64,000 nt of DNA, from assembly GCA_948144175.1 (NCBI GenBank), contig CANXME010000817.1, positions 1 to 64,000 on the forward strand, in the 5' to 3' direction. This DNA comes from Closterium sp. NIES-65. Its lineage: Eukaryota; Streptophyta; Zygnematophyceae; Desmidiales; Closteriaceae. A program made the translations under genes and the position numbers. Below the pieces are notes generated by a model that did no database searches, was not told the origin of the DNA, and saw only the letters and a program-made list of their open reading frames with translations. Shown here one piece after another: positions 9,764 through 55,364 of the stretch. Position 1 is the stretch's first letter, and every line of letters begins with the position of its first letter.

Positions 9764-9889
9764 TTCCCTCCTAGGGACTGCTTCTAGGGCCCACCGAACC
9801 GCGCCCCGAGGCGCGTTTTTTTTTTTTTAGCGACCCGTCGTGTCGCCCCTAGCGGCTCCGCCGCCCTTCCCTAGCGGCCCCGCCGCCCT

Positions 9890-10345
9890 TCGATCGCGGC
9901 CCCGCCGCCCTCTGCTACGCGGCCCCGCCGCCCCCCCTTCGATCGCGGCCCCGCCGCCCTCTGCTACGCGGCCCCGCCGCCCTCTGCTACGCGGCCCCGC
10001 CGCCCTCTGCCACGCGGCCCCGCCGCCCTCTGATACGCGGCCCCGCCGCCCTTCGATTGCGGCCCCGCCGCCCTCTGCTACGCGGCCCCGCCGCCCTCTG
10101 CTACGCGGCCCCGCCGCCCTCTGCTACGCGGCCCCCGCCGCCCTTCGATCGCGGCCCCGCCGCCCTCTGCTACGCGGCCCCGCCGCCCTCTGCTACGCGG
10201 CCCCGCCGCCCTCTGCTACGCGGCCCCGCCGCCCTCTTCGGTCGCGACCCCGCCGCCCTTCGATCGCGGCCCCGCCGCCCTCTGCTACGCGGCCCCGCCA
10301 CCCTCTGCTACGCGGCACCGCCGCCCTCTGCTACGCGGCCCCGCC
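9890..10345 (+). repeat. E2 leader minisatellite, 23-bp unit
   Basis: The unit GCGGCCCCGCCGCCCTCTGCTAC or a close variant (TCGATC or CACGC in place of CTACGC) repeats roughly 20 times between the primer site and gag. The frame 9840-10541 is open only because the repeat lacks stops; it is not called as a protein. Confidence 0.93.
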
Positions 10346-10479
10346 GAGCCGCCCAGCAGCAGCCAACCGCCCGCCAGCAGCCGGGCCGCCGCCGCCGCCG
10401 CCGAGCCGCCGCCACCAGAGCCGCCGCCGAGCCGCCGCCGCCGAGCCGCCGCTGAGCTGCAGCCGAGCCGCCGCCCGAG

Positions 10480-10627: not shown

Positions 10628-11990
10628 ATGGCCACCCCCAATGTTCTTACTTTTGACGCTGAGGGGAGGGCCATTGACTTTGCCGTCTGGATTGAAGACC
10701 TGCAGCTGTACTTACTGTGTGATGCGATAGATGAGGTCTCTCTCTTTGACTTTGTCTCTGGCGCTGTCCCTGCCCCACCTGCTGATGCTGACTCTGCCGT
10801 TCGCTCCAAGTGGGCGACCCGCGATGCTGCTGCACGTCTTGCTGTGCGTCGCCACCTCCCTTCCTCTGAGCGTGCCCACTTTAGTCAGTGCAAGACCGCT
10901 CAGGCCTTGTACGACGCTGTAGTTGCACGCTACTCCTCCCCTTCCTCCGCTACCCTTAGCCGCCTCATGCTACCGTTTCTCTTCCCTGACCTCGCTTCCT
11001 TTCCCACTGTCGCTGACCTCGTTACCCACCTCCGTGCTAGTGACACCCGCTACCGCGCTGCCCTTCCTGCTGAGTTCCGCGCTGCGAACCCTCCTCCCAT
11101 GTACATCACTCTCTACTTTCTCGTCACCCGTCTCCCTGAGTCCCTTCGTGTCGTTAGGGACCAGTTTCTCTCTGTCTGTCCCACCACTCTCACTGTCGAC
11201 CTCCTTGAGGAGTCCCTGCTAGCGGCTGAGAAGAGTATTGTCGCTGTAGGGGCCTCTCGGGGTGACCCTCGCACCCCCATCTTTGAGGGGTGTGGTCCTT
11301 CCCCCCTGCTGCCCTCTGTCGCCTCTGCCGCTGCGGCCGACCTCACTGGTTTTGAGTCGGTCGGCGCGGCGTCTGCCCCCAGCGGCAGACGCCGCTCTGG
11401 CAAGGGCAAGGGGGGCAAGGGAGCGGGTGGAGCTAGAGGGGGCGGTGGAGGAGGCGGTGGGGGTGGCGGGGGGAGTGGGGGTGGCGGTGGGGGTGGTGGC
11501 GGGAGTGGAGGTACTGGTGGCGGCGGTGGAGGCGGATGTGGCGGCGGAGGTGGTAGCGGAGGAGGCGGTGGGAGCGGTGGGAGCGACGGTCCTGGTGGGG
11601 GAAGTGGCGGTGGAGACGGGGGTGGCGGTGGAGGTGGGGGTGGCGGTGGAGGCGGGGGTCGGAGTGGCTCGTCCCAGCGGAGCAGCTCTGGGGGTGGTCA
11701 GCGTCAGCAGCAGCAGCAGCAGCAGCCGCAGCAGCAGCCACAGCAGCAGCAGCGCTCTCCGCACCGTCCTCGCCCCTCAGCAGCTCCGTGAGTGGTACTT
11801 GCAGCGTCAGCGTGGGTGGTGCGCTTGGTCCCTGCCCCTACGTTCTTCGCACCGGTGACCGTGCAGGGGAGAGGGTGTGGAGGCGCCCACACAGCCCGCC
11901 GCTGCTTTGGCCGCCTGACCGGCGCCTGGCGTCAGCAGTTTCCGGAGGCCGCTGAGATCCCCCGCTGGGGAGAGCTGTCTAGGGGCTGGT
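10628..11990 (+). pseudogene. gag: E2 gag (frameshifted)
   Basis: The start is the ATG at 10628 (MATPNVLTFDAEGRAID), matching the start of the E4 gag; an in-frame GTG at 10607 is rejected. Residues 1-200 form the capsid-like domain with DLQLYLLCD, WATRDAAARLAVRRHLP and FPTVADLVTHLR. About 110 residues of almost pure glycine and a Gln run follow. The frame ends at 11791, but the next frame supplies PQQLREWY, and further shifts are needed to read the C-P-Y-V..C-G-G-A-H..R-C-F knuckle-like motif (about 11838-11910). At least three one-base shifts separate it from pol. Confidence 0.88.
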
Positions 11991-14900
11991 GTAGCTATTT
12001 ATGATCTTGATTTTGATGCTATTCTCTCTGCTATGTATGCTGTGACTGGTAGTGATGAGGATGACTGTTACCGGTGTTTCCCGCCCGACCCGGGCATTGG
12101 TACTGCCGCGTCAGGTACTAGTGAGGCTGCTGCTCTAGGTGCCAGTGCGTCTGTGCTCTCAGGTGCTGGTGAGTCTGCCCTCTCAGGTACTGTGTCGGCT
12201 TCGGCCTCTCACACCTTCACCCTTGACTCTGGAGCGTCTCGCTCCTTCTTTAGGGACCGCACCACTCTCACGCCGCTGAGTCGGCCGGTTGCGGTGTCCC
12301 TGGCTGACCCCTCTGGGGGGCCTGTCCTGTCTCGCTTCTCCACTGTCCTCCCGTGTCCGGCGGCCCCCTCTGGCACCCTGACTGGTCTCTACCTCCCCTC
12401 GTTCTCGACGAACTTGGTGAGTGGTGCTGACCTCCAGGATGCGGGTGTCCACCAGTTCACCCCTGCTCGTCAGCGGGTGACCCACTGCACGGAGGCGGAT
12501 ACAGGTCGCCACCTGGCTACGTTTACACGTCGACCAGGGTCGAGCCTGTACACACTGACCACTGCTTCTCCTCCAGGTACTACGTCTGGTAGGGTCCCTT
12601 CGTCTGGTCAGGTGTTTGCTGCAGCGTCCAGGTCTGGTCCTGAGTCTGCCCCCTGCTCGTGTCGTCGTCTGTCTCACGAGACCCTCCTCTGGCACCACCG
12701 CCTTGGCCACCCCTCTCTGCTTCGGCTCAGAGGCATGGCCTCGCGAGTCCTTGTGTCTGGTCTTCCCCGGTCTCTCCCTCCCCTTCCTCCGGGCCCTGGC
12801 CCTACCTGTGTCCCCTGTGTCGAGGGGCGCCAGCGTGCTGCCCCTCACTCCTCCCAGTTTCCTCCGACAGAGGCCCCGTTGCAGACGCTTCACATGGACG
12901 TGTGGGGCCCAGCCCGCGTCCGTGGACAGGGTCAGGAGCGCTACTTCCTGCTGGTGGTTGACGACTACTCGCGTTACACCACAGTCTTCCCCTTGCGCAG
13001 CAAGGGTGAGGTCACTGAGGTGTTGATCGACTGGATCCGCGTAGCTCGTCTCCAGCTTCGGAGGAGCTTTGGCTCTAACTTCCCTGTTTTGCGTCTGCAC
13101 TCGGACAGAGGCGGAGAGTTCTCCTCTGGCCTCCTCAGTGCCTACTGTCGTGCGCGAGGCATCCGTCAGACCTTCACGCTTCCGGACTCACCACAGCAGA
13201 ATGGGATTGCTGAGCGCCGCATTGGCATGGTCATGGACGTCGCTCGTACGTCCATGATGCATGCGGCTGCTCCCCATTTTCTGTGGCCGTTTGCGGTCAG
13301 GTACGCTGCGCACCAAATCAACCTCCACCCCAGGGTCTCTCGACCGGAGACCTCCCCAGCCCTGCTGTGGACGGGGAAGGTTGGCGATGCGTCGGCGTTC
13401 CGGGTCTGGGGATCTCGGGCGTTTGTTCGCGACCTGTCTGCGGACAAGCTGTCCCCTCGTGCTTCTCCCTGCGTCTTCCTGGGGTTCCCCCCCGACGCCC
13501 CTGGGTGGCAGTTTTACCACCCCACCTCTCGACGTGTTCTGTCCTCCAAGGACGTCACGTTCGACGAGTCGGTACCCTACTACCGCCTCTTCCCCTACCG
13601 CACTCCGTCCCTCCCCCCACCCCCGCTCTTCTTGGTACCAGGTCCCCCCCCGGTAGTCCCCCTCCCCCCTCAGGGTCCTGCCCCTTCAGGTGTGTCCCAG
13701 GTAGACGCGGTCGAGCCTGTCGAGGTCACTGGTGACTCTGGTGCTGCTGCGGGAGCTGAGCCTGGGGGTGCGGAGTCTAGGGGTGCTGAGCCTGGGGGTG
13801 CTGAGCCTGGGGGTGCTGAGCCTGGAGGTGCCGAGCCTGGGGGTGCTGTGCCTGGGGGTGCTGTGCCTAGGGGTGCTGAGCCTGGGGGTGCTGCGCCTGG
13901 GGGTGCTGTGCCTGGGGGTGCTGAGCCTGGAGGTGCCGAGCCTGGGGGTGCTGTGCCTGGGGGTGCTGTGCCTAGGGGTGCTGAGCCTGGGGGTGCTGTG
14001 CCTGGGGGTGCTTCGTCTCGCCGGGAGCCACTCTCCCCACAGGAGCTGCGTGAGTGGTTTGCCATGCGCTGGAGGCGTGCTGCTGGTACTGGTGGTTCTT
14101 CGGCTGCAGAGGGTACTGCTGCCGCGCGTCCCGCCGGTGCTCGTACTGTGGGTGCTGGAGCTGCTGGGTCTGAGAGTTCTCCTGGAGCTGGTACTGCTGA
14201 GGGTGTTGACGCTGAGCCTGCCGTTGGCGGTCCGACTGACAGTGCTCCTGGTGCTGCTGCTGGAGGTTCTGGAGCTTCTGGTGGTGCTGCTGGAGGTGCT
14301 GCTGGAGTGGGTGCTCCTGCCGGGGCTGCTGGTGCTGTTCCTGCTGTTTCTAGTGTCGCCGCGCGGCCCCGACCGTACTTCGTTCCGCTCCTGCAGCAGG
14401 TTCTTGGTCTTCCACCTCCTCCTCCTCCTCCCTTAGAGGGTCCGCAGCCTGTCCGGTCACAGCCACAGCTACAGCCTGCCTCCCCTTTGCCTGCTCCTTC
14501 TCCCTACACTGGTCCGACTGGAGGTCTTACTGAGCGTCGTGAGCCTGCGTCTCGTCCTGTGTCGCCTGTTCGTACTGAGCGCGCTAGTGGTCGCGGGTCG
14601 CGTCAGCGTCCTCCTCCTGTCCCTGGCACGCACCGGATGTCACTGCGTCCGTCCACTGCTCCTCTGCGTGCCCCTTTGCCTTCTCCTCCTGCTTCCTCTC
14701 TTCCTGCTCTTGCCGACCCGGAGTCGGACTCTCTTCGTGCTGCCAGTCCTACTGTCACGCGTCTCCTTGCTACTGCTGTCACTGACCCTTCCTTCGAGTC
14801 GTCTGCTGCGTCTGCCCTAGTCACTGAGCTTGTCGACTTTGCTGCGCGCTGTCGTCTAGACTACGCTGCTCGTCTTGTCACTGAGTCTGAGTCCGCCTGT

Positions 14901-16622
14901 CCTCCGTCGGTCGGGGGTGAGTGTGCCCTTGGCACGGACGTCCTTGAGGACAGGCAGGAGGAGTTCCAGTGTCTGGCCGCCGCTTCACCTCGTCTCGCGT
15001 CTGTACTGCTAGCCCCTGAGGGAGACCCGGATGCACCAGACATCCCGACTCCGCGCTCTTACGCGGAGGCGATAGAGGGTCCCTACTCCTCTCAGTGGCA
15101 GGCAGCTATGGATGCAGAGATGGCTTCCTGAAAGTCCACAGGCACCTACGTTGACGCTGTTCCTCCTCCTGGGGCGAACATCGTCAGTGGCATGTGGATT
15201 TTCAGGGTGAAGCGGCCGCCGGGTTCTCTGCCTGTCTTCAAGGCGCGTTACGTGGCTCGTGGCTTCAGTCAGCGGCAGGGGGTTGACTACTTTCAGACCT
15301 TCTCCCCCACCCCGAAGATGACCACTCTTCGGGTCCTGCTGCACGTTGCTGCTCACCGTGACTACGAGCTGCACTCTCTCGACTTCAGCACAGCTTTCTT
15401 GCAGGGCAGCCTGCACGAGGAGATCTGGCTGCGTCGCCCACCTGGCTTCACTGGGTCTTTCCCTCCTGGTACCCAGTGGAGTCTCCGGCGTCCAGTCTAC
15501 GGTCTCCGCCAGGCGCCACGTGAGTGGCATGACACACTGAGGACTACGCTCGCGACACTTGGGTTTGCTCCTTCTACTGCCGACCCGTCGCTGTTTCTGC
15601 GCACCGACACCTCTCTGCCGCCGTTCTACATCCTCGTGTACGTCGACGACTTGGTCTTTGCCACAGCTGACACTGCTGGACTCGCCTACGTGAAGTCCGA
15701 GCTGCAGAAGAGACACACGTGCACTGACCTGGGTGAACTGCGCAGCTACCTTGGCTTGCAGATCACCCGGGACAGAGCACGCCGCACCATTACCCTGACT
15801 CAGTCACACATGGTGCAGCAGGTCCTTCAGCGCTTCGGCTTCACGTACTCCTCGCCTCAGGCCACTCCTCTGCCTACTCGCCACTCGCTCTCAGCTCTGC
15901 CTTCGGATGAGTCCGTAGAGTCGAGTGGCCCATTTGCAGAGCTTGTTGGCTGCCTCATGTACCTGATGACCTGCACACGACCTGACCTCGCATACCCTCT
16001 TAGCATTCTCGCACGCTTTGTTGCTCCTGGGAGACACCGACCAGAGCACATGGCTGCAGCGAAGAGGGTGTTGCGCTACTTGTGCAGTACGTCGGGCATG
16101 GGGCTAGTGCTTGGAGGGCGCAGTCCAGTGGTCCTCACTGGGCACGCAGACGCTTCTTGGGCTGACGACCAGGCTACGCAGCGGTCGTCACAGGGTTACA
16201 CCTTCAGCCTTGGTTCCGGCTCTGTCTCGTGGCGAGCTACCCGCTCGTCTTCTGTTCTCGGCTCCAGTTGTGAGGCTGAGATCTACGCTGGGGCTATGGC
16301 TGCACAGGAGTTACGCTGGCTCACCTACCTGCTGACCGACCTTGGAGAGCAGCCTCATTCTCCTCCAGTCCTGTACGTAGACAACAAGGCCATGCTGGCC
16401 TTGTGTCGAGAGCAGCGACTGGAGCACAGAACGAAGCACATTGCTCTCCGCTACTTTCTTGCTCGTGAGCTACAGCAGCGTGGACAGTTGCGACTTGCGT
16501 ACGTGGCCTCTGAGGCCAACACTGCTGATGTCTTCACCAAGGCACTTGCGCCTTGTGATCATCAGCGTTGTTGCACGCAGTTGGGTCTTGTGCCTGTCTT
16601 GCCTCACTTGCTTTCCTCTTGA
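11991..16622 (+). pseudogene. pol: E2 pol: protease, integrase, RT, RNase H with one TGA
   Basis: A single frame runs from about 11991 to 16622, interrupted only by TGA at 15129-15131 where the other copies have TGG (MASW). In order it shows the protease TFTLDSGASRSFF, the HHCC pre-integrase block (HHRLGHPS..CVPCVEGRQ), the integrase core (HMDVWGPARV, LHSDRGGEF, SPQQNGIAERR), a proline-rich end, a pentapeptide AEPGG array, LREWF, a Gly/Ala-rich linker, RT (DYFQTFSPTPKMTT, LDFSTAFLQG, ILVYVDDLVFA) and RNase H (TGHADASWADD, SCEAEIYAGA, YVDNKA, TADVFTKAL). In E4 gag and pol share a frame, so the family probably makes one Gag-Pol. Confidence 0.95.
13750..14010 (+). repeat. E2 15-bp array coding for the AEPGG pentapeptide
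   Basis: GCTGAGCCTGGGGGT and variants (GTGCCT, GCGCCT) repeat about 17 times in frame within pol between integrase and RT. Counterparts occur at the same place in E4, E6, E7 and E9. Confidence 0.92.
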
Positions 16623-16825
16623 CCTTGCTTGTACCTTCGCCTATATATACTCTTGCTCTTGCTTGCTTGACTCTTGTATATCTCTATATATGATCTTGCA
16701 TGTGAACTGGCCTTCTGGCCTTTGAACTTGTGCTCGGAATGCGTGGTGACTTTGTGATCCACCCTGAGCTTTGCTTTGCTTTGCTTGACTGGTCTTGTGA
16801 CCCCTTGTTCTCCCCCACTTTGCCT

Positions 16826-19998: not shown

Positions 19999-20003
19999 GA
20001 GTC

Positions 20004-20490
20004 TGTCAGAATCCCAACCACTAGACCATTGGGATAAAAGGGCTTTTTTTCAGTAGCGGGTCAGTGCGCCCATAACCCCCCAGGCAAACGCGCCTGTAAC
20101 CCCCCCTAGGATCGATCGGGGATCTCACAGTGTAGCTCTACTGACACCCCCCCACACTGGGAGGCCCAGGACTGAGCACAGTGGCAACGACCAACATGTG
20201 CATACACCGGGATTCGAACCCGAGACCGCTATGATACCATGTCAGAATCCCAACCACTAGACCATTGGAATAAAAGGGCTTTTTTCAGTAGCGGGTCAGT
20301 GCGCCCATAACCCCCCAGGCAAACGCGCCTGTAACCCCCCCTAGGATCGATCGGGGATCTCACAGTGTAGCTCTACTGACACAAAGGGCTTGTTTCAGTA
20401 GCGGGTCAGTGCGCCCATAACCCCCCAGGCGAACGCGCCTGTAACCCTCTCCAGGATCAATCGCGCATCCACAGTGCAGATCTACTGACA
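20004..20490 (-). mobile_element. TRIM-a: miniature LTR element, TSD GAGTC
   Basis: LTR copies lie at 20004-20146 (143 bp) and 20240-20381 (142 bp), both TGTCAG..CTGACA on the plus strand. They flank a 93-bp interior with no coding capacity. On the minus strand the interior begins with a primer site TGGTATCATAGC right after the LTR and ends with a G8-type polypurine tract. A third, 5'-shortened LTR (20382-20490) abuts the second. The whole array is bounded by GAGTC at 19999-20003 and 20491-20495, so it behaves as one insertion. These are the defining features of a TRIM. Confidence 0.9.
20210..20264 (-). promoter_or_regulatory. tRNA-like Pol III A and B boxes in TRIM-a
   Basis: On the minus strand TGGTCTAGTGG (20254-20264) fits the A-box consensus and GGTTCGAATCC (20210-20220) fits the B-box consensus, with exactly 33 nt between them as in tRNA genes. 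The B box lies in a perfect T-arm (CGGG/CCCG stem). The sequence crosses the LTR end and the primer site. The acceptor stem does not pair, so it is tRNA-like and not a functional tRNA gene. Confidence 0.75.
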
Positions 20491-20495
20491 GAGTC

Positions 20496-23285: not shown

Positions 23286-23318
23286 CAACCCCTTAGCATG
23301 CTAGCACAGGAAGAGAAC

Positions 23319-23747
23319 TGTCAGAATCCCAAACACTAGACCATTGGGATAAAAGGGCTTGTTAAGTAGCGGGTCAGTGTGCCCATAACCCCCCAGGCCA
23401 ACGTGCCTGTAACCCTTCCCTAGGATCAATCGGGGATCACCAGTGGACCTCTGACACCCCCCCGCACTGGGATGCCCGAAGTGCATACACCGGGATTCGA
23501 ACCCGAGACCTTCGCTCTGATACCATGTCAAGACTCTAGCGAGGCTTAGGAGCCATGGTTAGTGAGATCGAGTAAGTTAAGTTCGAGGGTGAGGTGAATG
23601 TCGAGAAAGTTGAGAAGGAGAATGAGTGTTCACTATAGCAAGAGAGTACATATAGCAAACAAGTGAAGAAAGAGGTGCACCACCTATAAAGTTCATATCT
23701 ACACTAAAGCTAGAACTACATGCAGATATAAGAATATAGCTCTGACA
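23319..23747 (-). mobile_element. TRIM-b: chimeric miniature element, TSD AGAAC
   Basis: The left terminal block (23319-23456, TGTCAGAATCCC..CTCTGACA) is a diverged TRIM LTR. The interior (23457-23525) retains the polypurine tract, a B box (23493-23503) and a primer site TGGTATCAGAGC closer to the initiator-Met consensus. The right terminal block (23526-23747, TGTCAAGACTCT..GCTCTGACA, 222 bp) is unrelated to the left one. AGAAC flanks both ends (23314-23318 and 23748-23752), so the chimera inserted as a unit into E3. Confidence 0.8.
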
Positions 23748-23762
23748 AGAACAACCCCTGAA

Positions 23763-29329: not shown

Positions 29330-30780
29330 CGGCGGGTGGACCCGCGGCGGCCAAGGAAGGGGGGGGGGGGGGGGGGGGAGTGCTGCTGCTGAGGCTGGCG
29401 CACTCCTCCGACCGCTGCTGCCGGTGCTGCCGCTGCTGCTGCTGCTGCCGTTGCTGCCGATGCTGCTGCTGCTGCCGCTGCTACCGCTGCTGCCGCTGCT
29501 GCCGCTACTGCCGCTGCTCCCGATGCTGCTGCTGCTGTCGCTGTTGCTGCTGCGGCTGCTGAGCTGTCCTAGCTGTTGCTACGTGGGAGGAGAGGAGAAG
29601 GAAAGGGGGAGGGGGGGGGGAGGAAGAGGAAGAAAGTTGCAGCTGTGGGCGGGGCTGTTGCTGCCAAGGCCGCCGCTGCTGCTTGGTGGGGCGGCTGCTG
29701 CGGCGGCGGAATCTGCAGAGGGGTGGTGTGGGCAGGCGGGGACAAGCGGGCGCTGCGGCGGGAAGCGCAGGAGGCGATGGGAGGGTCGCGGTAGCGGAAA
29801 TCGCGGGCGGCTGGCGGTGTAGTCGCGGCGGCGGAAATTGCGGCCGGGTAGTGGGGCAGTAGGAGCAGCGGGATGCGCGGGCGATGGCGCACGACGACGG
29901 CGGCGGGGAGGGGAGGCGACTGGCAGGCGGCGACGAACAGGTCGCGGTGGCGGGATGCACAGGCGGGGACGAGCAGGTCGCAGCGGCGGGATGCGCGGGC
30001 GACGACGAGTAGGTCGCGGCGGTGGGATGCGCGGGCGGCGACGAGTAGATCGCGTCGGCGGGATGCGCGGGCGGCGACGAGCAGGTCGCGGCGGTGGGAT
30101 ACACAGGCGGCGACAGTAGGTCGCGGCGGCAGGAGGTGCAGGCGGCGACGGTAGGTCGCGACGGCGGGATGTGCAGGCGGCGACGAGCAGGTCGTGGCGG
30201 CGGGATGCGCAAGCGGCGACGCGACGTCGCGGCGGCGGGACGTGCAGGCGGCGACGAGCGGGTCGCGGCGGTGGGATGCGAAGGCGGCGGCGAGCGGGTC
30301 ACTGCGGCGGGGCGTGCAGGCGGCGACGCGAAGTCGCGGCGGCGGGATGGGAGGCGGCGACGAGGCGTCGCGGCGGCGGGATGCGCAGGCGGCGCCGAGG
30401 AAGGCGCGGCGGCGGTAAGGGGAGGCGGCGACGTGACGTCGCGGCAGCGGGAGGGGCAGGCGATGACGAGGCGTCGCGGAGGCGGTAAGGGGAGGCGGCG
30501 ACGTGACGTCGCGGCAGCGGGAGGGGCAGGCGATGAGGAGGCGTCGCGGAGGAGGGATGCGCGGGCGGCGCCGAAGAAGGCGCGGCGGCGGGAGGGGGGA
30601 GGCGGCGACGGGGGGGTCGCGGCAGGGGGAAGGGGAGGCGGCGACGAGGCGTCGCAGCGAGATGCGCAGGCGGCGCCGGAGCAGGCGATGCGCTCGCGGC
30701 AGTGGGATTCGCAGGCGAGGAGGGCGCAATCGCGGCGGAGGGAGGGAAGGGCAGCACCGGCGTAGGTCGCGGCGAGGGTA
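29330..30780 (-). repeat. E3 leader satellites
   Basis: From gag toward the 5' LTR there are a G18 run, GCTGCTGC/CGCTGCTGC arrays (29400-29560), and then from about 29840 units of roughly 36 bp built from GGCGGCGACGAGCAGGTCGC and GCGGCGGGATGCGC. Long open frames on both strands are by-products of the repeat. Confidence 0.88.
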
Positions 30781-32409: not shown

Positions 32410-32608
32410 CAACCCCATAGGCAAAGTGGGGGAAAACAAGAGGTTACAAGACCAGTCAAGCAAAGCACAGCAAGCTCAGGGTGGATCACAACGTCACCAC
32501 ACATTCCGAGCACAAGTTCAAGGCTACAAGGCCAGTTCACATGCAAGATTATATATATAAAGGTAAACAAGCAAGTGCAGGTATAGATAGATCACAGTAC
32601 AAGCAAGG

Positions 32609-33913
32609 TCAAGAAGTGAGCAAGTGAGGCAAAGTAGGCACAAGACCTAGCATTGTACAAAAGCACTGATGGTCACAAGGCTGAAGTGCCTTGGTAAAGA
32701 TCTCAGCAGTGTTGGCCTGAGAGGCCACGTAAGCAAGGCGCAGCTGACCACGCTGCTGCAGCTCACGAGCAAGGAAGTAGCGAAGAGCAATGTGCTTCGT
32801 TCTGTGCTCAAGTCTGTGCTCTCGACACAAGGCCACAATGGCTTTGTTGTCTACGTACAGAACTGGAGGAGAACGAGGCGGCTCTCCTAGGTCAATCAGC
32901 AGGTAGGTGAGCCAGCGTAGCTCCTGTGCAGCCATGGCCCCTGCGTAGATCTCAGCCTCACAGCTGGAGCCAAGAACAGAGGACGAGCGGGTAGACCGCC
33001 ACGAAAAAGAGCCGGAACCAAGGCTGAAGGTGTAACCCTGTGACGACCGTTGCGTAGCCTGGTCGTCAGCCCAAGAAGCATCTGCGTGACCAGTGAGGAC
33101 CACTGAACGTCGCCCTCCAAGCACGAGCCCCATGCCCGACGTACTGCACAAGTAGCGCAACACCCTCTTCGCTGCAGCCATGTGCTCTGGTTGGTGTCTC
33201 CCAGGAGCAACATAGCGTGCCAAGCTGCTAAGAGGGTATGCAAGGTCAGGTCGAGTGCAAGTCATCAGGTACATGAGGCAGCCAACAAGCTCTGGGTACG
33301 GGCCACTCGGCTCTACGGACTCATCCGAAGGCAGAGCTGAGAGCGAGTGGCGAGTAGACAGAGGAGTGGCCTGAGGCGAGGAGTACGTGAAGTCGAAGCG
33401 CTGAAGGACCTGCTGCACCATGTGTGACTGAGTTAGAGTAATGGTGCGCTGTGCTCTGTCTCGGGTGATCTGCAAGCCAAGGTAGCTGCGCAGTTCACCC
33501 AGGTCTGTGCACGTGTGTCTCTTCTGCAGCTCGGACTTCACGTAGGCGAGTCCAGCAGTGTCAGCAGTAGCAAAGACCAAGTCGTCGACGTACACGAGGA
33601 TGTAAAACGGCGGCAAAGAGGTGTCGGTGCGTAGAAACAGCGACGGGTCAGCAGTAGAAGGAGCAAACCCAAGAGCCGCAAGTGTAGTCCTCAGTGTGTC
33701 GTGCCACTCACGGGGCGCCTGGCGGAGACCGTAGACTGGCCACCGGAGGCTCCACTCGGTACTAGGAGGAAACGACCCAGTGAAGCCAGGAGGGCGGCGC
33801 AGCCAGATCTCCTCGTGCAGGCTGCCCTGTAGGAAAGCAGTGCTGAAGTCAAGAGAGTGAAGCTCGTAGGCGCGCTGAGCGGCTATGTGTAGCAGCACCC
33901 GAAGAGTGGTCAT
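32609..33913 (-). pseudogene. pol: E4 RT C-terminal part and RNase H
   Basis: 434 codons from the KMTTLRVLLH block to the normal C terminus. It shows LDFSTAFLQGSLHEE, PVYGLRQAPREWH, the catalytic ILVYVDDLVFA, YLGLQITRDRA, TGHADASWADD, SCEAEIYAGAMA, YVDNKAIVAL and TAEIFTKAL. The frame is intact here. A deletion of about 14 bp near 33925-33950, inside the FQTFSPTPKMTT block, disconnects it from the upstream RT. Confidence 0.94.
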
Positions 33914-33951
33914 CTTTGGGATGGTGAAAGTTGTCGACTCCCTGCCGCTGA

Positions 33952-35684
33952 CTAAAGCCTCAAGCCACGTAACGCGCCTTGAAGACAGGCGGAGAACCCG
34001 ACGGCCGCTTCACCCTGAAAATCCACATGCCACTGACGATGTTCGCCCCAGGTGGGGGAACCTCGTCGACGTAGGTGCCTGTGGATTTCCAGGAAGCCAT
34101 CTCTGCGTCCATGGCTGACTGCCACTGAGAGGAGTAGGGACCCTCTATCGCCTCTGCGTAAGAGCGCGAAGTCGAGATGTCTGGTGCATCCAGGAAAATC
34201 AGCAACAAGATACCGGAACTCCTCCTGCCTGTCCTCAAGGACGTCCGTGCTAAGAGCACACTCACCCCCGACGGACGGAGGACAGACAGACTCAGACTCA
34301 GCAACAAGACTAGCAGCGTAGTCTGGAGGACAGCGAGCAGCAAAGTCGACAAGCTCAGCTACTAAGACAGACGCAGCAGTGGACTCAAAGGAAGGGTAAG
34401 TGACAGCAGTAGCCAGGAGACGCGTGACAGTAGGAGTGGCAGCACGAAGGGAGTCAGACTTCGGGTCAGCAAGAGCAGGAAGAGAGGACTCTGGAGGAGA
34501 CGGCAAACGGACACGCAAAGGAGCAGTGGAAGGACGCAGTGCCATCTGGTGTATGCCTGGGACCGCACGAGGACGCGGACGCGGAACACGACGACTAGTG
34601 CGAGCAGCACAAACAGGCGACGCAGGACGAGACGCAGGCTCACGACGCTCAGCAAGACCTCCAGTAGGACCAGTGTAGGAAGAAGGAGCAGGTAGCAGGG
34701 AGGCGGGTTGTAACTGCGACTCAGACTGGACAAGCGGCTGACACTCTAAGGAAGGAGCAGGACCAGCAGAAGGCGGGAGACAAAGAACTTCCTCATGTAG
34801 CGGAATGAAGTACGGCCGCGGCCGTGTTCCGCCTCCAGAGCCAGCAGGGAGAGCACCAGCACCCCAAGCGGCAGCACCAGCACCAGTAGCACCCCCACCT
34901 GCAGCATCGCCAGCTCCAGCACCCTCAGAAGCACCAGCGCCAGCAGCAGCGCCAGCTCCAACACCCCCAGCAGCTCCAGCTCCAGCCGGACCACTGGAAG
35001 ACTCAACAGCCCCATCTCTAGCACCTCCAGCAGCACCTGCTCCAGAAGCAACGTCAGCTCTAGCAACGACAGCAGCTCCAGCACAAGGATAACCCCCAGG
35101 CCCAACAGCTCCAGTACCTCCAGTACGAGCACCTCCGGGACCCGTGGCACCAGCACCCTCAGCAGTATTAGAACCTCCACCTCCTGCAGCACCTCCAGCT
35201 CCAGCAGCACAGCTCCAGCGCCGAGAAAACCACTTGCGCAGCTCCTGTGGAGAGGGTAGCTCCCGCCGGGACGAAGCACCCAAAGGACCTCCAGACCCAA
35301 TACCGCCAGGCTCCACACGAGCAGGCCCAGCACCCTCAGGCTCCGCACCCCGTGTCTCAGCACCCCCAGACTCAGCACCCCCAGGCTCAGCACCCCCAGG
35401 CTCAGCACCCCCAGACTCAGCACCCCCAGGCTCTGCACCCCCAGACTCTGCACCCCCAGACCCCGCACCCGCAGGCTCAGCACCCCTAGCAGCACCAGAG
35501 TCAACAGCTACCTCGACAGGCTCGATTGCGTCTATCTGGGACACACCTGAGGGGGCAGGACCCCGAGGGGGAAGGGGGTCTACCGGGGGGGACCTGTCAC
35601 GAGGAAGAGTGGTGGCGGGGGGAGGGGCGCAGTGCGGTAGGGGAAGAGACGGTAGTAAGGAACCGACTTGTCAAACGTGACGTC
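33952..35684 (-). pseudogene. pol: E4 integrase-RT linker and RT N terminus
   Basis: The frame 33952-35544 begins with the VEVAVDSG stretch, then an [10 protein letters not shown] pentapeptide array, then SPQELRKWFSRRW, then a long Gly/Ala linker, then LPALADPKSDSLRAATPTVT, the family's pre-RT region. A deletion near 34185 shifts frame. The real RT start (AEIEGPYSSQW-type block, then GTYVDEVPPPGANIVSGMW) is then read in the frame 33960-34352. A further shift separates it from the integrase upstream. Confidence 0.88.
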
Positions 35685-38057
35685 CTAGGAGGACAGAACA
35701 CGGCGCGAGGTGGGGTGGTAAAACTGCCAACCAGGCGCGTCAGGGGGGAAGCCAAGGAAGACGCAGGGAACAGCACGGTGTGACAGCTTGTCCGCAGACA
35801 AGTCGCGGACAAAAGCCCGAGATCCCCAGACACAAAACGCTGACGCATCGCCAACCTTCCTGGTCCACCGCAGAGTAGGGGAGGTCTTCGGCAAGGAGCA
35901 CCGGGGCTGAAGGTTGATCTGATGCGCCGCGTACTGAACCGCGAACGGCCACAGAAAATAGGGAGCAGCCGCATGGATCATGGACTTACGAGCGACGTCC
36001 ATGACCATGCCAATGCGGCGCTCATCAATCCCATTTTGCTGTGGAGAGGCTGGAAATGTGAAGGTCTGGCGGATGCACTGTGCACAACAGAAGGCTCCCA
36101 GACGGGCAGAGGAAAACTCCCCGCCTCTGTCAGAGTGCAGACGCAGAACAGGAAAGTCCGAGCCGAAACTCCGCCTGAGCTGGAGACGAGCTGCGCGGAT
36201 CCAGTCGATCAACACCCCTGTGACATCACCCTTGCTGCGCAAGGGGAAGACTGTGGTGTAACGCGAGTAGTCGTCAACCACCAACAGGAAGTAACGCTCG
36301 TGACCCTGGCCACGGACGCGGGCGGGGCCCCACACGTCCAGGTGAAGTGTCTGCAGCGGAACCTCTGTCGGAGGAAACTCGGAGGAGTGAGGAGCGGCGC
36401 GCTGCCGCCCCTCGACGCAGGGAACGCAGGTAGGGGCAGGCCCCGGAGGGAGGGGAGGGAGGGACCGGGGGAGACCAGAGACAAGGTAACGAGAGGCCAT
36501 GCCTCGGAGACGAGGCAGGGAGGGGTGACCAAGGCGGTGGTGCCAGAGGAGAGCCTGGTGAGACAGGAGACGACACGAGCAGGGGGCAGACTCAGGACCA
36601 GACATGGACGTTGCAGCTAACACCTGACCCGACGCAGCTACCTGACCTGACTCAGCAGCCGGAGGAGACTTAGTAGTCAGTGTGTACAGGCTCGACCCCG
36701 GCTTACGGGTAAACGTGGCCAAGTGTCGGCCCGTCTGAGCACACGTACAGTGGGTCACCTGATGACTCGCAGGAAAGAACTGGTCAACCCCACCATCCTG
36801 TAGATCAGCACCACTCACCAAGTTCGTAGAGAACGAGGGGAGGTTAAGACCTGACAGGGTGCCAGAAGGGGTCGCCGGGCACGCTAAGACAGTGGAGAAG
36901 TGGGCAAGGACAGGTTCCCCGGAGGGGTCCGCCAAGGAGACCGCAACTGGCCGACGAAGCGGCGTCAGTGTGGTGTGGTCTCGAAAGAAGGAGGGGGAAG
37001 CACCCGAGTCAAGGGTGAAGGTGTGGAAGGCTTGAGCCGACGTGGTACCTGAGAGAGCAGACTCACCAGCACCTGGGGCAGCACACGCGCTAGCACCTAG
37101 AGCAGCAGCCTCACCAGCACCTAGAGCAGTAGCCTCAATGCCCGGGTCAGGCGGAACATATAGGTAACAGTCACCCTCATCACTAGTAGACACAACATAC
37201 ATGGCAGCAAGAATAGCATCATAATCCAGATCAAAGATAGCAACCCCCGACCTAAGCAGCTCGCCCCAGCGGGGGATCTCAGTGGTGTCAGGGAACTGGA
37301 GGCGCCAAGCGTCTGTCAGGCGGCTGAAGCAGCGCTGGGTGGTGTGTGGGCCACCGCACGGCTCACCAGTATGGTCGCCGGTACGCAGGACGTAGGCACA
37401 GGGACCAGCACCCCCACCCCGCTGACGCGCAGCGTACCACTCACGAAGCCGCTGGGGGGGTGGGGTCTCACGAATGCGCAGCTGTTGCTGGCGCTGACCA
37501 CCACCGAAGCCGCCCCGCTGCGCAGAGCCACCCCGACCAGCTCCACCGCCGCCGCCGCCACCTCTTCCACCGCCGCCACCGCCTCCTCCTCCGCTCCTAC
37601 CGCCACCGCCGCCGCCGTCTCCGCCTCCACCGCCGCCACCGAAGCCCCCATCCCCGCCACCACTCCCACCGCCACCCCGACCCCCTCCGCCGCCTCCACC
37701 GCCACCTCCACCGCCCCCGCCAGCTCCTCCAGCGCCCTTGTCCCCCTTGCCCTTGCCGGTGCCTCGTCTCCCGCTAGGGGCAGACGCAGCGCCGACCGAC
37801 TCGGTGCCAACAAAGTCAACGGCAGCAGCTGAGGCAACAGAGGGCAAAATGGGGGAGGGGGAGCACCCCTCAAAGAAGGGGGAACGAGGGTCACCACGAG
37901 AGGCTCCTACAACGACTACACTCTTCTCAGCTGCCAGGAGGCGCTCCTCGAGGAGGTCAACGGTGAGTGTGGTGGGGCAAACAGAGAGGAAGTGGTCCCT
38001 GACCGGGCGAAGGGAGTCAGGGAGCCGGGTGACTATGTAGTAGAGGGTGATGTACAT
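35685..38057 (-). pseudogene. pol: E4 Gag C-terminus, protease and integrase in one frame
   Basis: 790 codons show that Gag and Pol share a frame in this family. In order: end of capsid domain, Gly-rich tract (about residues 95-180), QRLREWYAARQ, knuckle variant C-AYVLRTGDHTGEP-C-GGP-H-TTQR-C, protease TFTLDSGASPSFF (about 345), HHRLGHPS..CVPCVEGRQ, HLDVWGPARV, LHSDRGGEF, SPQQNGIDERR and the integrase C-terminal block. TAG at 35685-35687 replaces the Lys of SSKDVTF. Confidence 0.93.
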
Positions 38058-39441: not shown

Positions 39442-39946
39442 TGTGAAAGAACGAGGAATGGAATGACTAGGTGAAATGTGTGTCAGAATCCCAACCACTA
39501 GACCATTGGGATAAAAGGGCTTGTTTCAGTAGCGGGTCAGTGCGCCCATAACCCCCCAGGCGAACGCGCCTGTAACCCTCTCCAGGATAAATCGGGTATC
39601 CACAGTGCAGATCTACTGACACCCCCCCCACACTGGGAGGCCCAGGACTAAGCACAGCGGCAACGACCTACATGTGCATACACCGGGAATCGAACCCGAG
39701 ACCACTATGATACCATGTCAGAATCCCAACCACTAGACCATTGGGATAAAAGGGCTTGTTTCAGTAGTGGGTCAGTGCGCCCATAACCCCCCAGGCAAAC
39801 GCGCCTGTAACCCTCTCCAGGATCAATCGGGCATCCACAGTGCAGATCTACTGACAATGTGGGTACAAGTAGAAAACCTAGAAATGTTTTACCCTATAGT
39901 ATCTACCCCACTACAGCCTAGATAGACCATAGCATATAAACTGACA
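39442..39946 (-). repeat. E4 5' LTR, interrupted by TRIM-c
   Basis: The LTR parts are 39442-39480 and 39857-39946, after allowing for the ATGTG duplication. Joined, they match the 3' LTR at 32285-32409. Confidence 0.93.
39481..39856 (-). mobile_element. TRIM-c: complete miniature LTR element, TSD ATGTG
   Basis: Two 141-bp LTRs (39481-39621 and 39716-39856), TGTCAG..CTGACA, enclose a 94-bp interior. ATGTG flanks both ends (39476-39480 and 39857-39861). On the minus strand the interior starts with primer site TGGTATCATAGTGG and ends with a CAGTGTGGGGGGGG polypurine tract. A box TGGTCTAGTGG (39730-39740) and B box GGTTCGATTCC (39686-39696) are again 33 nt apart. The B box differs from TRIM-a at a degenerate position only. 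Confidence 0.93.
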
Positions 39947-41257: not shown

Positions 41258-41514
41258 CACCACCATAGGCAAAGCGGGGGACAAGCAAGAGAACAAGGCA
41301 AGTTCAAGCTCAGGGTGGATCACAACATCACCACGCAATCTGAGCACAAGTAAATGGCCACAAGGCCAGTTCACATGCAGAGTTAAAAATCAAGGTGAAC
41401 AAGCAAGACTGAGATCTCAACCTAGCAAGGGTAAGCATGCAGGTGCACGTATTTATAGCTCACAGTACAAGCAAAGTCAAGAGGTAAGCAAGTGAGGCCA
41501 GGTAGGCACAAGAC

Positions 41515-42528
41515 CTAACATAGTACAAAAACGCTGATGATCACAAGGCTGAAGAGCCTTGGTAAAGATATTAGCAGTGTTGGCCCGAGTGGCCACGTAA
41601 GCAAGACGAAGCTGACCACACTACTGCAACTCTCGAGCAAGGAAGTAGCGCAGAGCAATGTGCTTCTTTCTGTGCTCCAGCCTGCGCTTTTGACACAAGG
41701 CAAGCATGGCCTTGTTGTCGTCGTACAAAACTCAAGGAAAACGAAGCGCCTCTCCCAAGTCGGTCAACAAGTAAGTGAGCCAGCGTAACTCCTGTGCAGC
41801 CATGGCCCCAGCGTGGATCTCAGCCTCACAACTGGAGCTGAGAACAGAAGACGAGCACGTAGACCGCCACAAAACAGAGCCGGAACCAAGGCTGAAGGTG
41901 TAACCCTGTGACAACCGCTGCGTAGCCAAGTCGTCAACCCAAGATGCGTCTGCGTGACCAGTGAGGACAACTCGAGCCCGTCCTCCAAGCATGAGCCCCA
42001 TGCCCGACGTACTGCACAGGTAGTGCAACACCCTCTTAGCTGCATCCATGTGCTCTGGTTGGTGTCTCCCAGGAGCAACATAGCGTGCCAGGATGCTAAG
42101 AGGGTCTGCCAGGTCAGGTTGAGTGCAGGTCATTAGGTACATGAGGCAACCCACAAGCTCTGGGTACGGGCCACTCGGCTCTACGGACTCATCTGAAGGC
42201 AGAGCTGAGAGCGAGTGGCGAATAGACAGAGGAGTGGCCTGAGGCGAGGAGTACGTGAAGTTGAAGCGCTGAAGGACCTGCTGCACCATGTGTCACTGAG
42301 TCAAGGTAATGGTGCGCCTTGCTCTGTCCCGGGTGATCTGCAAGCCAAGATAGCTGCGCAGCTCACCCAGGTATGTGCACGTGTGTCTCTTCGGCAGCTT
42401 CGACTTCACGTGGGCCAGTCCAGCAGTGTCTGCAGTAGCAAAGACCAATTCGTCGACTTGCACGAGGATGTAGAACGGCGGCAGCGAAGTGTCGGTGCGT
42501 AGAAATAGCGACGAGTCAGCAGTGGACG
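41515..42528 (-). pseudogene. pol: E5 RT fragment and RNase H
   Basis: Minus frames 42293-42538, 41732-42289 and 41515-41703 carry TADSSLFLRTDTSLPPFYILV, a VQVDELVFA block where the catalytic YVDD should be, HTCTYLGELRSYLGLQIT, TGHADASWVDD, SCEAEIHAGAMA and an RNase H end. A stop at 42290-42292 and several missense changes are present. Loss of YVDD alone would abolish activity. Confidence 0.88.
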
Positions 42529-42664
42529 TGTCAAACATTATACATGTCTATATTGTGTAGGCTATAGTGGGTTTAGCCTTAGGGGGTACATCCTTGCTAG
42601 GGTTTCCTAGTTGTATCACCCTGTTGCCTAGTCTCATCCATTCTCGTGCAGTACTAGATTCTAA
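42529..42664 (+). repeat. E6 5' LTR
   Basis: 136 bp, TGTCAAACATTATAC..AGATTCTAACA, with core TAGGCTATAGTGGG and TAGGGTTTCCTAG. Confidence 0.88.
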
Positions 42665-45652: not shown

Positions 45653-47385
45653 GTGGAACTGCTTAGGCAGAGGGTAGATATCTTTGCTCTTGACTATGAT
45701 GCTATTCTTACTGCAATGTATGCATTGTCTACTAGTGCCGAGGGAGCCTGTCACCTGTGTGTGCCGCCTGACCCCGGTATCCAGTCTGCTGCTCCAGGTG
45801 CCGGTGAGGCTGCCGCTCTAGGTGCTAGTGCGTCTGCTGCCCCTGGTCCTGGTGAGGCTGCTGCTCTAGGTGCAGGTGTGTCTGCTGCTTCAGGTGCTTG
45901 TGAGTCTGCGCCTTTAGGTACTGCGTCTACTGAGGCACTGCACACCTTCACACTGGACTCAGGTGCTTCCCGCTGTTTCTTTCGCGACCGCACTGCCCTC
46001 GAGCAGCTCCCTAGGCCGGTTGCTGTCTCCCTGGCTGACCCCTCCGGGGGTCCGGTCCTTGTGACCTCCACCACTGCCCTCCCTTGTCCTGCTGTCCCGT
46101 CTGGCACACTGTCGGGCCTTTACCTCCCCTCGTTCTCTACGAACTTGGTGGCGGGTTCTGCGCTCCAGGACGCAGGTGTTCACTAGTTCACCCCTGCCTA
46201 CGAGCGTGTGACACACTACACGTGTGCCCAGACAGGTCGTCACCTGGCTACCTTCACTCGGCAGCCTGGGTCGGACTTGTACACACTGACCACCGAGTCC
46301 CCTCAGGTAGCGGCGTCTGCGTTTGCGTCAGGTCAGTTGTCCGCCCCCTGCTCGTGTCGCACCCTGTCGCACCAGACGGTCCTCTGGTGGAACCGCCTTG
46401 GGCACCCTTCGATGCAGCGCCTTCGTGGCATGCACTCTTGTTTCCTTGTCTCTGGTCTCCCCAGGTCACTACCTCCCCTGCCACCGTCCCCTGCCCCTCC
46501 TTGCCTTCCCTGTGTCGAGGGGCGGCAGCGTGCCGCTCCTCACTCCTCTGAGTTCCCCCCGACGGATGCTCCTCTGCAGACCCTTCACATGGACGTGTGG
46601 GGCCCAGCCCGCGTCCGTGGACAGGGCGGAGAGCGCTACATCCTGCTGGTAGTTGACAACTACACGCGTTACACCACAGTCTTCCCCTTGCGCACCAAGG
46701 GAGAGGTCCCTGCTGTATTGATCCCTTGGATCCACGCTACTCGTCTCCAGCTGGAGGGGCGCTTTCGCACGGACCTTCCCATCCTGCGACTGCACTCTGA
46801 CAGAGGTGGTGAGTTTTCCTCTGGCCTCTTGGAGGCCTTCTGTCAGGGGGAGGGCAATGAGCAGACGTTCACGCTTCCGGCCTCTCCTCAGCAGAATGGG
46901 GTTGCTGAGCGCCGCATTGGCTTGGTCATGGAGATCGCTCGTACCTCCTTGATCCATGCGGCTGCCCCCCATTTTCTGTGGCCGTTTGCAGTCCGGTACG
47001 CCGCGCATCAACTCAACCTCTGGCCCCGTGTCTCCGTTCCGGAGACCTCGCCGACACTGCGTTGGACGGGAGCGGTTGGCGATGCGTCTGTGTTCCGTGT
47101 CTAGGGATCTCGTGCCTTTGTCCGCGATACATCCGCGGACAAGCTCTCCTCCCGTGCCGTTCCTTGTGTCTTCCTGAGCTTTGTCCCTGACGCGCCTGGC
47201 TGGCAGTTTTACCACCCCACCTCGCGCCGTGTCTTCCCCTCTCAGGACGTCACGTTTGACGAGTCGGTCCCCTTTTACCGTCTCTTCCCCTACCGCACTG
47301 CCCCGCTCCCCCCTCCGCCGCTCTTCTTTACGCGAGGTGCTGCTTTGGTAGACCCCGTGCCTCCCTAGGGTCCTGCTCCCTCAGG
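45653..47385 (+). pseudogene. pol: E7 protease and integrase
   Basis: One frame holds FALDYDAILTAMYALS, the protease TFTLDSGASRCFF, an HHCC block starting at VLWWNRLGHPS (H to N change), HMDVWGPARV, LHSDRGGEF and SPQQNGVAERR. It is broken by TAG at 46184-46186 (Gln in VHQFTP), 47102-47104 (Trp before GSRAFVRD) and 47366-47368 (Gln). The frame is otherwise continuous, so decay is by point mutation. Confidence 0.93.
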
Positions 47386-47386
47386 T

Positions 47387-49735
47387 GTGTCCCAGGTAGA
47401 CCTGGTCGAGCATGTCGAGGTAGCTGTCGACTCTGGTCCTGCGCGAGGTTTTGAGCGTGCTGAGCCTGCGCGTGCTGAGCCTGAGCGTGCTGAGCCTGGT
47501 GGTGCTGGGTCTGGGGGTACTGCGACGAGGGGTGCTAAGCCTGGGGGTGCGGAGACTGGGGGTGCTGAGGCTGGGGGTGCGGAGACTGCGGGTGGTGAGC
47601 CTGGGGGTGCTGAGACTGGGGGTGTTGTCCCTGGGGGTGCTGAGTCTGAAGGTCCTGAGCCTGGGGGTGCTGCACCTGGGGGCGTTCTCACTTCCCAGCA
47701 GCTGCGTGAGTGGTACTCTCGGTATTGTCGCCGCCGCAGTGGTGCTGTGGGAGCTGGAGGTGCTATTGGAGCTGGAGCTGAGGGCGCTAAGCCTAATGGA
47801 GTTGGTGTTGCTGCTGACCCTCGGGTTGGCGCTGGAGGTGCTGGAGCCACTGGTCTTTCAGGTGCTCGTACTGGCGGAACTGGAGCTGCTGGGACTTGGG
47901 GTGCTACTGGAGCTGCTGGAGCTGGTCCTGCTGGAGGTGCTGCTGGTGCTGCTGGAGGTACTGGAGCTACTGGAGCTGCTGGTGGTGCTGCTGGTACTGG
48001 GGCTGGTGCTGCTGGAGGTACTGGTGTTGCTGGAGGTGCTGCTAGTGCTGGTCCTGCTGGAGGTGCTGCTGGTGCTGCTGGAGGTACTGGAGCTGCTGGT
48101 GGTGCTGAGCGAGTTGGAGCTGCTGCTGGAGGTTCTGGTGCTGTCTCTGCTGGTTCTGGGGGCACTTCACGGCTACAGCCGTACTTCGTTCCCCTCCTTC
48201 AGCAGGTTCTTGGTCAGCCGCTTCCTCCTTGTCCTGCTCCCTCCTTAGAGTGTCCTCCTCCTGTCTAGTCGCTGTCACAGCTACCACCTGCCTCGCCACT
48301 CCCTGGTCCTTCTCCCTACACTGGTCTGACAGGCGGTCTTATCGAGCGTCGTGAGCCTGAGTCTCGTCCTGTGTCGCCTGTGTCTCGGCCTGCGTCACCT
48401 GTTCATTCTGCTCGCACTGGTCGTCGTGTCCCGCGTCATCGTCCTCCTGCTGTCGCAGGCACTCACCAGATGGCGCTTCGTCCTTCCACTGCTCCACAGC
48501 GTGTCCCGCTGCCTTCTCCTCCTGCGTCCTCTCTTCCTACCCTTGATGACCCAGACTCTGACTCTCTTCGTGATGCTAGTCCTACTGTTACGCGTCTCCT
48601 GGACACTACTGTCACTGACCCTTCCTTTGAGTCAGCTGCTGCGTCTGCCTTAGTTGCTGAGCTTGTCGACTTTGCTGCTCACTGTCGTCTAGACTACGCT
48701 GCGAGTCTTGTTGCTGTGTCTGAGTCTGAGTCTGTCTATCCTCCGTCCGTCGGGGGTGAGTGTGCTCTTGGCACGGACGTCCTTGAGGACAGGCAGGAGG
48801 ACCTTGAGTGTTTTGCAGCTGCTGCACCTCATCTCGTGTCCATGGTACTTGCCCCTGAGGGAGACCCGGATGCTCCAGACATCCCGACACCGCGCTCTAA
48901 CGCTGAGGCGATTGCGGGTGAGTACTCCTCACAGTGGCAGTCAGCCATGGACGCAGAGATGGCATCATGGAAGTCCACTGGCACTTACGTCGCCGAGGTT
49001 CCCCCTCCTGGGGCGAACATCGTCAGTGGCATGTGGATTTTCAGGGTGAAGCGGCCGCCAAGTTCTCCGCCTGTCTTCAAGGCTCGTTATGTTGCTCGAG
49101 GCTTCAGTCAGCGAGAGGGAGTAGACTTCTTCCAGACCTTCTCCCCCACCCCGAAGATGACCACTCTTCGGGTGCTACTGCACATTGCCGCTCAGCATGA
49201 CTACGAGCTTCACTCTCTTGACTTCAGCACAACTTTCTTGCAAGGCAGCCTGCACGAGGAAATCTGGCTGCGCCGCCCTCCTGGCTTCACTGGGTCGTTC
49301 CCTCCTTGTACCCAGTGGAGCCTCCGGCGGCCGGTCTACGATCTCCGCCAGGCGCCACGTGAGTGGCACGACACACTGCGGACTACACTTGCGGCTCTTG
49401 GGTTCGCGCCTTCTACTGCTGACACGTCGCTGTTTTTGCGCACCGACACTTCGCTGCCGCCGTTCTACATCCTCGTGTACGTTGACGACTTGATCTTTGC
49501 CACTACTGACACTGAGGCTCTCGCCCTGGTGAAGTCGGAGCTGCAGAAGAGACACACGTGCACAGACATGGGTGAACTCCGCAGCTACCTTGGCTTGCAG
49601 ATCACCCGGGACAGAGCACGCCGCACCATCACACTGACTCAATCACACATGGTGCAGCAGGTCCTTCAGCGCTTCGGCTTCACAGGCCACTCCTCTGGCT
49701 ACAGGTCACTCGCTCTCAGCTCCACCTTCGGATGA
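47387..49735 (+). pseudogene. pol: E7 linker and RT
   Basis: Same frame as the integrase: VEVAVDSG, an AE-x-GG pentapeptide array, TSQQLREWYSRYC, and a Gly/Ala linker to TAG at 48266-48268. Then come the pre-RT block, ANIVSGMWIFRVKRPP, FFQTFSPTPKMTT, LDFSTTFLQG, PVYDLRQAPREWH, the catalytic ILVYVDDLIFA and YLGLQITRDRA. A deletion of about 16 bp at 49683 shifts the frame just before the RNase H connection. Confidence 0.93.
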
Positions 49736-54205: not shown

Positions 54206-54214
54206 GTCGTGTAG

Positions 54215-55216: not shown

Positions 55217-55227
55217 GCTCTATACCA

Positions 55228-55359: not shown

Positions 55360-55364
55360 CTTGA

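Follow-up and report, generated by a model that had tools for sequence, protein, structure and literature searches.

Our analysis supports the existence, in Closterium sp. NIES-65, of a family of TRIM elements that keeps a tRNA-type pair of A and B boxes spanning the junction between the LTR and the primer site. Members of the family lie in the stretch of DNA analysed here (64,000 nucleotides, contig CANXME010000817.1, hereafter the window), and further copies were collected from the genome (874 Mb, 2400 contigs). The anatomy of the elements, their target-site duplications, their copy number, the persistence of both boxes at two spacings and the joints formed with other LTR elements at the primer site were all observed directly. 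On balance, we favour the reading that this is a TRIM, probably moved by Copia, that would be transcribed by Pol III only when it is full length. If this is true, the range of Pol III-driven LTR elements (Cassandra, Helenus, Ajax) would be extended to transcription that depends on LTR and interior together, and solo LTRs would be transcriptionally harmless.

The minus strand of the window carries the TRIM elements copy a (20004-20490) and copy c (39481-39856; Table 1). From the 5' side, copy a consists of a truncated LTR, the 5' LTR, the interior and the 3' LTR, and copy c has the order LTR-interior-LTR (39856-39481). In both copies, a primer site of the initiator-Met type, TGGTATCATAG, directly abuts the 5' LTR, and a G-run PPT precedes the 3' LTR. 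LTRs of the family are about 140 bp long and interiors about 70 or 94 bp. Two short LTRs, a tiny interior, a total length below about 1 kb, a primer site, a PPT and 5-bp duplications are thus all present, as in TRIM elements. The unit of copy b (foreign LTR, interior, TRIM LTR) is bordered on both sides by AGAAC (23314-23752), which marks either an insertion with two different LTRs or a 1-in-1024 coincidence. Much of the window is filled by other repeats, found in both orientations (11983-16650, 32581-37252, 41449-42536, 46327-50450, 53207-58143 and 61357-64000), the longest pairs of which are 74-94% alike. Three GC-rich minisatellite arrays, at 9859-10396, 29937-30687 and 54209-55112, have repeat periods of about 23, 35 and 16-23 bases.

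Table 1. Features of TRIM copies a, b and c in the window; roles given to T4 runs are proposed
Feature	Positions	Strand	Remarks
Copy a, target-site duplication GAGTC, left	19999-20003	.	identical to 20491-20495
Copy a, 3' LTR	20004-20146	-	A box 20018-20028, T4 20036-20039, no B box
Copy a, interior	20147-20239	-	G-run PPT 20147-20153 at its 3' end
Copy a, B box GGTTCGAATCC	20210-20220	-	in interior
Copy a, primer-binding site TGGTATCATAGC	20228-20239	-	complements initiator tRNA-Met 3' end with one change (by eye, CCA added)
Copy a, 5' LTR	20240-20381	-	
Copy a, A box TGGTCTAGTGG	20254-20264	-	inside loop of U5 hairpin
Copy a, T4 run	20272-20275	-	7 nt upstream of A box; putative R end
Copy a, extra truncated LTR	20383-20490	-	joined head to tail; ends at T run
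Copy a, target-site duplication GAGTC, right	20491-20495	.	identical to 19999-20003
Copy b, TRIM LTR	23319-23456	-	A box with one mismatch 23333-23343
Copy b, interior	23457-23525	-	primer site 23514-23525, B box 23493-23503, spacer of the 36-nt-subfamily type
Copy b, foreign LTR upstream of interior	23526-23747	-	no A box; after 3' end of Copia-like frame
Copy c, target-site duplication ATGTG, left	39476-39480	.	identical to 39857-39861
Copy c, 3' LTR	39481-39621	-	A box 39495-39505, T4 39513-39516
Copy c, interior	39622-39715	-	primer site 39704-39715, PPT 39622-39629
Copy c, B box GGTTCGATTCC	39686-39696	-	in interior
Copy c, 5' LTR	39716-39856	-	A box 39730-39740 (TGGTCTAGTGG), T4 39748-39751
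Copy c, target-site duplication ATGTG, right	39857-39861	.	identical to 39476-39480

In copies a and c, the A box is exactly TGGTCTAGTGG and lies 14 nt inside the LTR end, and an exact GGTTCGANTCC B box is found in the interior after a gap of 33 nt. The coordinates confirm what a sequence-only reading of this DNA had reported, namely both boxes exactly 33 nt apart on the minus strand: A in the LTR, B in the interior and the primer site between them. The A pattern occurs 6 times within the window (1.48 expected), which is above chance. The A-box string recurs letter for letter in a tRNA-Gly-like gene of this genome, and TGGTCTAGTGGT and the T-arm match such a gene. The gene in question (locus L004, 1490-1566) has an unusually long anticodon arm and is called tRNA-??? 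or Gly(gcc) by ARAGORN, depending on the mode. The pairing T-arm noticed earlier is present in copies a and c, although 8 of 17 distinct rows have a non-standard pair at one T-stem position.

A functional tRNA was rejected: ARAGORN detected no tRNA within the window, no acceptor stem was seen in the A-B stretch, and the Rfam tRNA model gave copy a 16 bits, below its 29-bit threshold. For copy c, the matches listed by the Rfam scan are of the T-arm, to tmRNA families and to a plastid UTR family, with no RF00005 row among them (one lower-scoring match of the clan is omitted there). No Rfam family reached threshold within the window. Folding of three 76-nt window segments was no better than that of their shuffles (z +0.42, +0.14 and -0.47). 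The A-B stretch is tRNA-like in its boxes and is not a tRNA.

Exact A-N22..50-B matches number 3293 (1598 + 1695) in the whole genome, compared with 0 for the reversed pattern. By this count the B segment is hardly the unrelated chance match that had been named as a possible refutation. Exact B boxes alone occur 6432 times (942 for the reversed pattern) and LTR cores, with up to 3 mismatches, 11195 times (4 reversed). Among the A-B matches listed, one is a tRNA-Gly-like gene (C9), and the others belong to the TRIM family as judged by eye.

We then compiled a mixed sample of 132 context-distinct LTR-core instances from the collected loci and the window, in which overlapping loci may have left a few duplicates and part of which (L001-L078) was fetched by the boxes themselves. 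The primer site comes next in 63 of these LTRs. Allowing at most one mismatch, an A box is present in 62 of the 63 (50 exact) and a B box in 58 (50 exact). The single case without an A box has a damaged one; of the five without a B box, four are LTRs leading into a different interior, and in the fifth the B box has decayed. In the 57 cases with both boxes, the spacing is 33 nt (33 cases), 36 nt (20), 34 nt (2) or 35 nt (2). A second sample comprised 76 LTR instances from loci fetched by the LTR core alone (L079-L128); since the LTR-core places listed were exact matches, old decayed LTRs are under-represented in it. Here, 35 of the 76 LTRs are followed by the primer site, with an A box in 34 (28 exact), a B box in 32 (27 exact) and both in 31, again at no more than one mismatch. 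Loss of a box in most copies had been set in advance as a reason to abandon the idea, and these loci show the opposite. The 33-nt spacing reported for copies a and c holds in part: it does not vary freely, as 27 of 31 pairs stand at 33 or 36 nt (33 nt in 16, 36 in 11, 34 in 2 and 35 in 2), but it is bimodal genome-wide rather than 33 nt alone.

Complete LTR-interior-LTR units (n = 43) are 342-381 bp long, and 28 of them are flanked by exact 5-bp target duplications. Eleven of the 15 without an exact duplication adjoin another LTR or interior in arrays, and the remaining four show no match. Tandem LTR-interior-LTR-interior arrays were seen at L008, L013, L035 and L128. All 28 duplication-flanked units have two A boxes (at most one mismatch), and 27 have one B box. 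Their LTR pairs are 88-100% identical, four of them at 100%, which suggests recent activity of the family. Two subfamilies, differing in U3 and interior, keep both boxes in nearly all sampled full copies.

With regard to transcription, a tRNA-type Pol III promoter would be assembled from the A box at the U5 end and the B box in the interior past the primer site, and TFIIIC would bind the pair in the full element only. Pol III would start about 17 nt upstream of the A box, at CAA in the LTR, transcribe both boxes with the primer site between them, then the rest of the interior with the PPT and the 3' U3, and terminate at the T4 run that precedes the A box in the 3' LTR. With these limits, the two RNA ends would share a short R, about AAGCCCTTTT. 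An autonomous element (most likely Copia) would supply the enzymes that make and insert the DNA, with initiator tRNA-Met as primer. Because a solo LTR or a 3' LTR has the A box only, it should be silent. In its strictest form, which we put forward tentatively and with less than even confidence, the promoter would exist only across the LTR-interior junction, the Pol III start and the LTR T-run terminator would set the RNA ends and R, full elements would be transcribed and solo LTRs promoter-dead, annealing of the primer tRNA would take place within the promoter, and reverse transcription would restore the promoter in every round. This model predicts the two limits of R for a Pol III-type LTR element, a question left unaddressed by the portions of the Cassandra and Helenus accounts drawn on here.

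Upstream CAA triplets mark the transcription start of plant tRNA genes, and T runs terminate it (PMC11700998). A CAA lies 18 nt upstream of the A box in 23 of the 28 duplication-flanked units and is missing in five; the 5' LTR of copy a also has none at -18. Of the 132 LTR instances, 121 contain the T4 run, which precedes the A box by 7 nt (113) or 8 nt (5). In 36 of 42 units, T4 is found only at the R sites of the two LTRs, and two units have other T4 runs; shuffles of the downstream stretch predict about 0.86 runs per unit, and since the units are related, the pattern amounts to fewer independent observations than it appears. A T4 run also lies a few nt past the proposed start, and Pol III would need to read through it. 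At 20382-20490 of the window and at L125, in two subfamilies, an LTR breaks off at the T run and is fused to the start of the next LTR. Joints between R and an LTR start number six genome-wide, five of them at the T run, and two control sites gave 2 and 9 with patterns of equal length. These joints are not enriched at the T run, so an RNA 3'-end footprint there was dropped from consideration, which leaves the Pol III start, the stop and R as putative.

The block that contains the boxes could instead be conserved as RNA. On this explanation, the stretch from U5 to slightly beyond the primer site would be a module for packaging, dimerisation or priming, the box letters would be kept for that purpose, and Pol II would make the genomic RNA. 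Retroviruses have a U5 hairpin beside the primer site. Here, the 7-bp inverted repeat ATCCCAA/TTGGGAT, which had been reported to flank the A box and does so (the 5' LTR of copy a reads ATTCCAA, giving a G-U pair), pairs around it so that the A box forms the loop. An ungapped hairpin segment was obtained from 123 of the 132 instances (9 were dropped), with 44 distinct rows; these are related and hence not independent, and in them 297 of 308 cells pair, compared with a maximum of 296 in 2000 shuffles, and changes on both sides occur at two pairs. Longer rows (76 distinct) pair in 521 of 532 cells and contain six both-sided cells, and when the partner strand was slid by 1-3 positions, at most 301 cells paired and 0 to 2 were both-sided. 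The U5 hairpin thus looks like a real RNA structure, and compensatory changes in a hairpin whose loop is the A box offer a rival reason for conservation of that box.

Conservation, measured as the mean share of the commonest letter in 63 aligned stretches, is also even across the block. The share rises from 0.854 in U3 ahead of the core to 0.976 in the proposed R and 0.980 in the A box. It then declines through 0.965 between the A box and the primer site, 0.962 within the primer site and 0.932 ahead of the B box to 0.925 in the B box (0.75 at its N position) and 0.667 after it. The last value is due mainly to a stretch absent from one subfamily, with the first twelve bases and the PPT end remaining high, so that the conserved block extends from the LTR core to some twelve bases beyond the B box. 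Within this block, neither the A nor the B box exceeds its neighbours in conservation, and the measure therefore does not single them out, which argues against a promoter-only reading. CCAAT, which could serve Pol II, occurs in 41 of 43 units, its LTR instance being CCCAATGG at the A box; AATAAA is found in 1 of 43. However, TATAAA is absent from the LTR in all 43 units. Furthermore, the B region looks like a DNA motif: it keeps the sense T-loop while the T-stem pair is often broken. Neither a loop equal to the A box of a host tRNA over 12 nt nor a B box at tRNA-like spacing would be expected of an RNA module. We regard conservation for RNA functions as possible, yet rather unlikely.

Another explanation concerns the past of the family. 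The boxes might be relics of a Helenus-like or SINE-bearing ancestor that are no longer used, and some units that lack an A box fit this. In a survey of loci L001-L048 and the window, 38 of 60 B-box matches have GGTATC upstream, and two of these are tRNA-Gly genes. Upstream of the other 36 units of primer site and B box lie an exact A box (24), a one-mismatch A box (6) or a foreign or recombinant LTR without A box (6; L005, L010, L011, L021, L044 and copy b). However, two subfamilies with different U3 and interior retain both boxes in almost every full copy sampled, which makes disused relics improbable.

The same joints bear on the mobilising partner within the favoured reading of a Pol III-transcribed TRIM. 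At L005 and L010, a TRIM LTR and primer site lead into another interior, and at L011, a TRIM U3 is fused to a foreign U5. The TRIM LTR end is joined to TGGTATCAGAGCT at 21 places genome-wide; the sequence beyond was viewed in one of them (L116), so some of the others may be point changes. The foreign LTR of copy b adjoins the 3' end of a Copia-like frame, and letters nearby match Copia copies of the window (for example 16272-16333), one of which sits in a frame with an RVT_2 domain. By these matches, the partner of copy b appears Copia-like, and it is the sole foreign LTR with such support. Nine window frames were tested, and five encode Copia-type domains. An exact TGGTATCAGAGC forms the primer site in 43 of 63 cases of the mixed sample and in 22 of 35 of the LTR-only sample, and it is the complement of the initiator tRNA-Met genes of this genome (two genes, compared by eye). 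A plant-type initiator-Met pattern has matches in this genome, and contig C20 looks plastid-like by eye, judging from the tRNA genes at L027/L028. The case for Copia as the probable mobiliser draws on copy b and the common primer site. Strand transfer between co-packaged RNAs at a shared initiator-Met primer site would explain the joints, and recombination after insertion may also have produced them; joints of this kind with other LTR elements may point to the mobilising partner. Truncated TRIM LTRs at L009/L055 and L054 stand directly after ...TTCTGACA, which by eye is a foreign LTR start in reverse complement (head to head).

It is also conceivable that the B-like stretch extends the primer site and is complementary to the T-arm of the primer tRNA, the A box being coincidental. 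Extra boxes extend primer complementarity in Ty1, and because T-arms are near-palindromic, the T-arm of initiator tRNA looks like a B box when reverse-complemented. The alignment scores led us to reject this source: the 18-letter T-arm stretch scores 14 (copies a and b) or 16 (copy c) against the sense T-arm of the tRNA-Gly-like gene, compared with 8 or 9 against the reverse complement of the initiator T-arm, which leaves the explanation very improbable. Given the shared A string and this T-arm alignment, both halves read as sense tRNA sequence. A chance match or an assembly artefact can draw on the window-level B count alone (3 found at no more than one mismatch, 3.72 expected) and is hardly credible in view of 3293 A-gap-B pairs against none reversed and the presence of target duplications.

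Among known systems, tRNA-derived SINEs (SINE2) are likewise short and multicopy and carry A and B boxes at tRNA-like spacing (partly PMC10886601), whereas the Closterium TRIM has LTRs, a primer site, a PPT and 5-bp duplications, which indicate LTR-type replication. Other plant TRIMs, including those of algae and a lycophyte, are also short LTR elements (PMC4717578); the words polymerase III, pol III and tRNA are absent from the main text of that article. Cassandra shares with the Closterium family the state of a non-coding TRIM, the primer site TGGTATCAGAGC, tandem LTR-interior arrays and a Pol III-type promoter, and differs in that its promoter is of the 5S type (boxes A and C) and lies within each LTR (PMC7215508, PMC10853983). 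No 5S rRNA sequence was recognised in the window, where Rfam reported no family at threshold. The mobilising partner of Cassandra is called unknown in PMC10886601 and PMC7215508.

The sequence-only reading had known of no described family with this layout. This does not hold in kind, since Helenus, as described in the portions of Kojima 2024 (PMC10886601) drawn on here, is a TRIM with a tRNA-like sequence (Pol III boxes A and B) in its LTR, a tRNA-type counterpart of Cassandra for which an origin by SINE capture was also proposed. As for the split layout, in the open-licence literature, the full Helenus family supplement aside, we found no described element with its boxes split across the junction of LTR and primer site. 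The pattern of A end, primer site and B box has 0 matches in viral contigs and 0 in bacterial/archaeal contigs.

Helenus and the Closterium TRIM are both non-coding and have A and B boxes, a primer site and a PPT. Helenus makes 5-bp duplications in fungi and plants, as the Closterium TRIM does, and some of its members use the 3' end of initiator-Met, with Copia as the likely mobiliser in fungi (PMC10886601). Its one plant example comes from Selaginella, and the size is similar (Helenus-1_SMo, LTR 120, interior 85; PMC10886601). Of the letters that most Helenus elements have, TRGCY and YGG in A and GGTTC in B (PMC10886601), GGTTC of the B box and TGG at the A-box end are present here; the A box starts with TGGTC, not TRGCY, and equals the A box of the host tRNA-Gly-like gene. 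Helenus has both boxes in each LTR, whereas the Closterium TRIM has A in the LTR and B in the interior with the primer site between, and in copies a and c and the sampled units the two boxes never lie together inside an LTR. As its tRNA-like sequence is not confined to the LTR, the Closterium TRIM is not Helenus as written, though it would work alike. Helenus-type elements are grouped by their author as TRIMp3 (PMC10886601), TRIMs with a Pol III promoter, and, given a functional promoter, the split layout would be a variant of the TRIMp3 kind that differs from Helenus in box placement.
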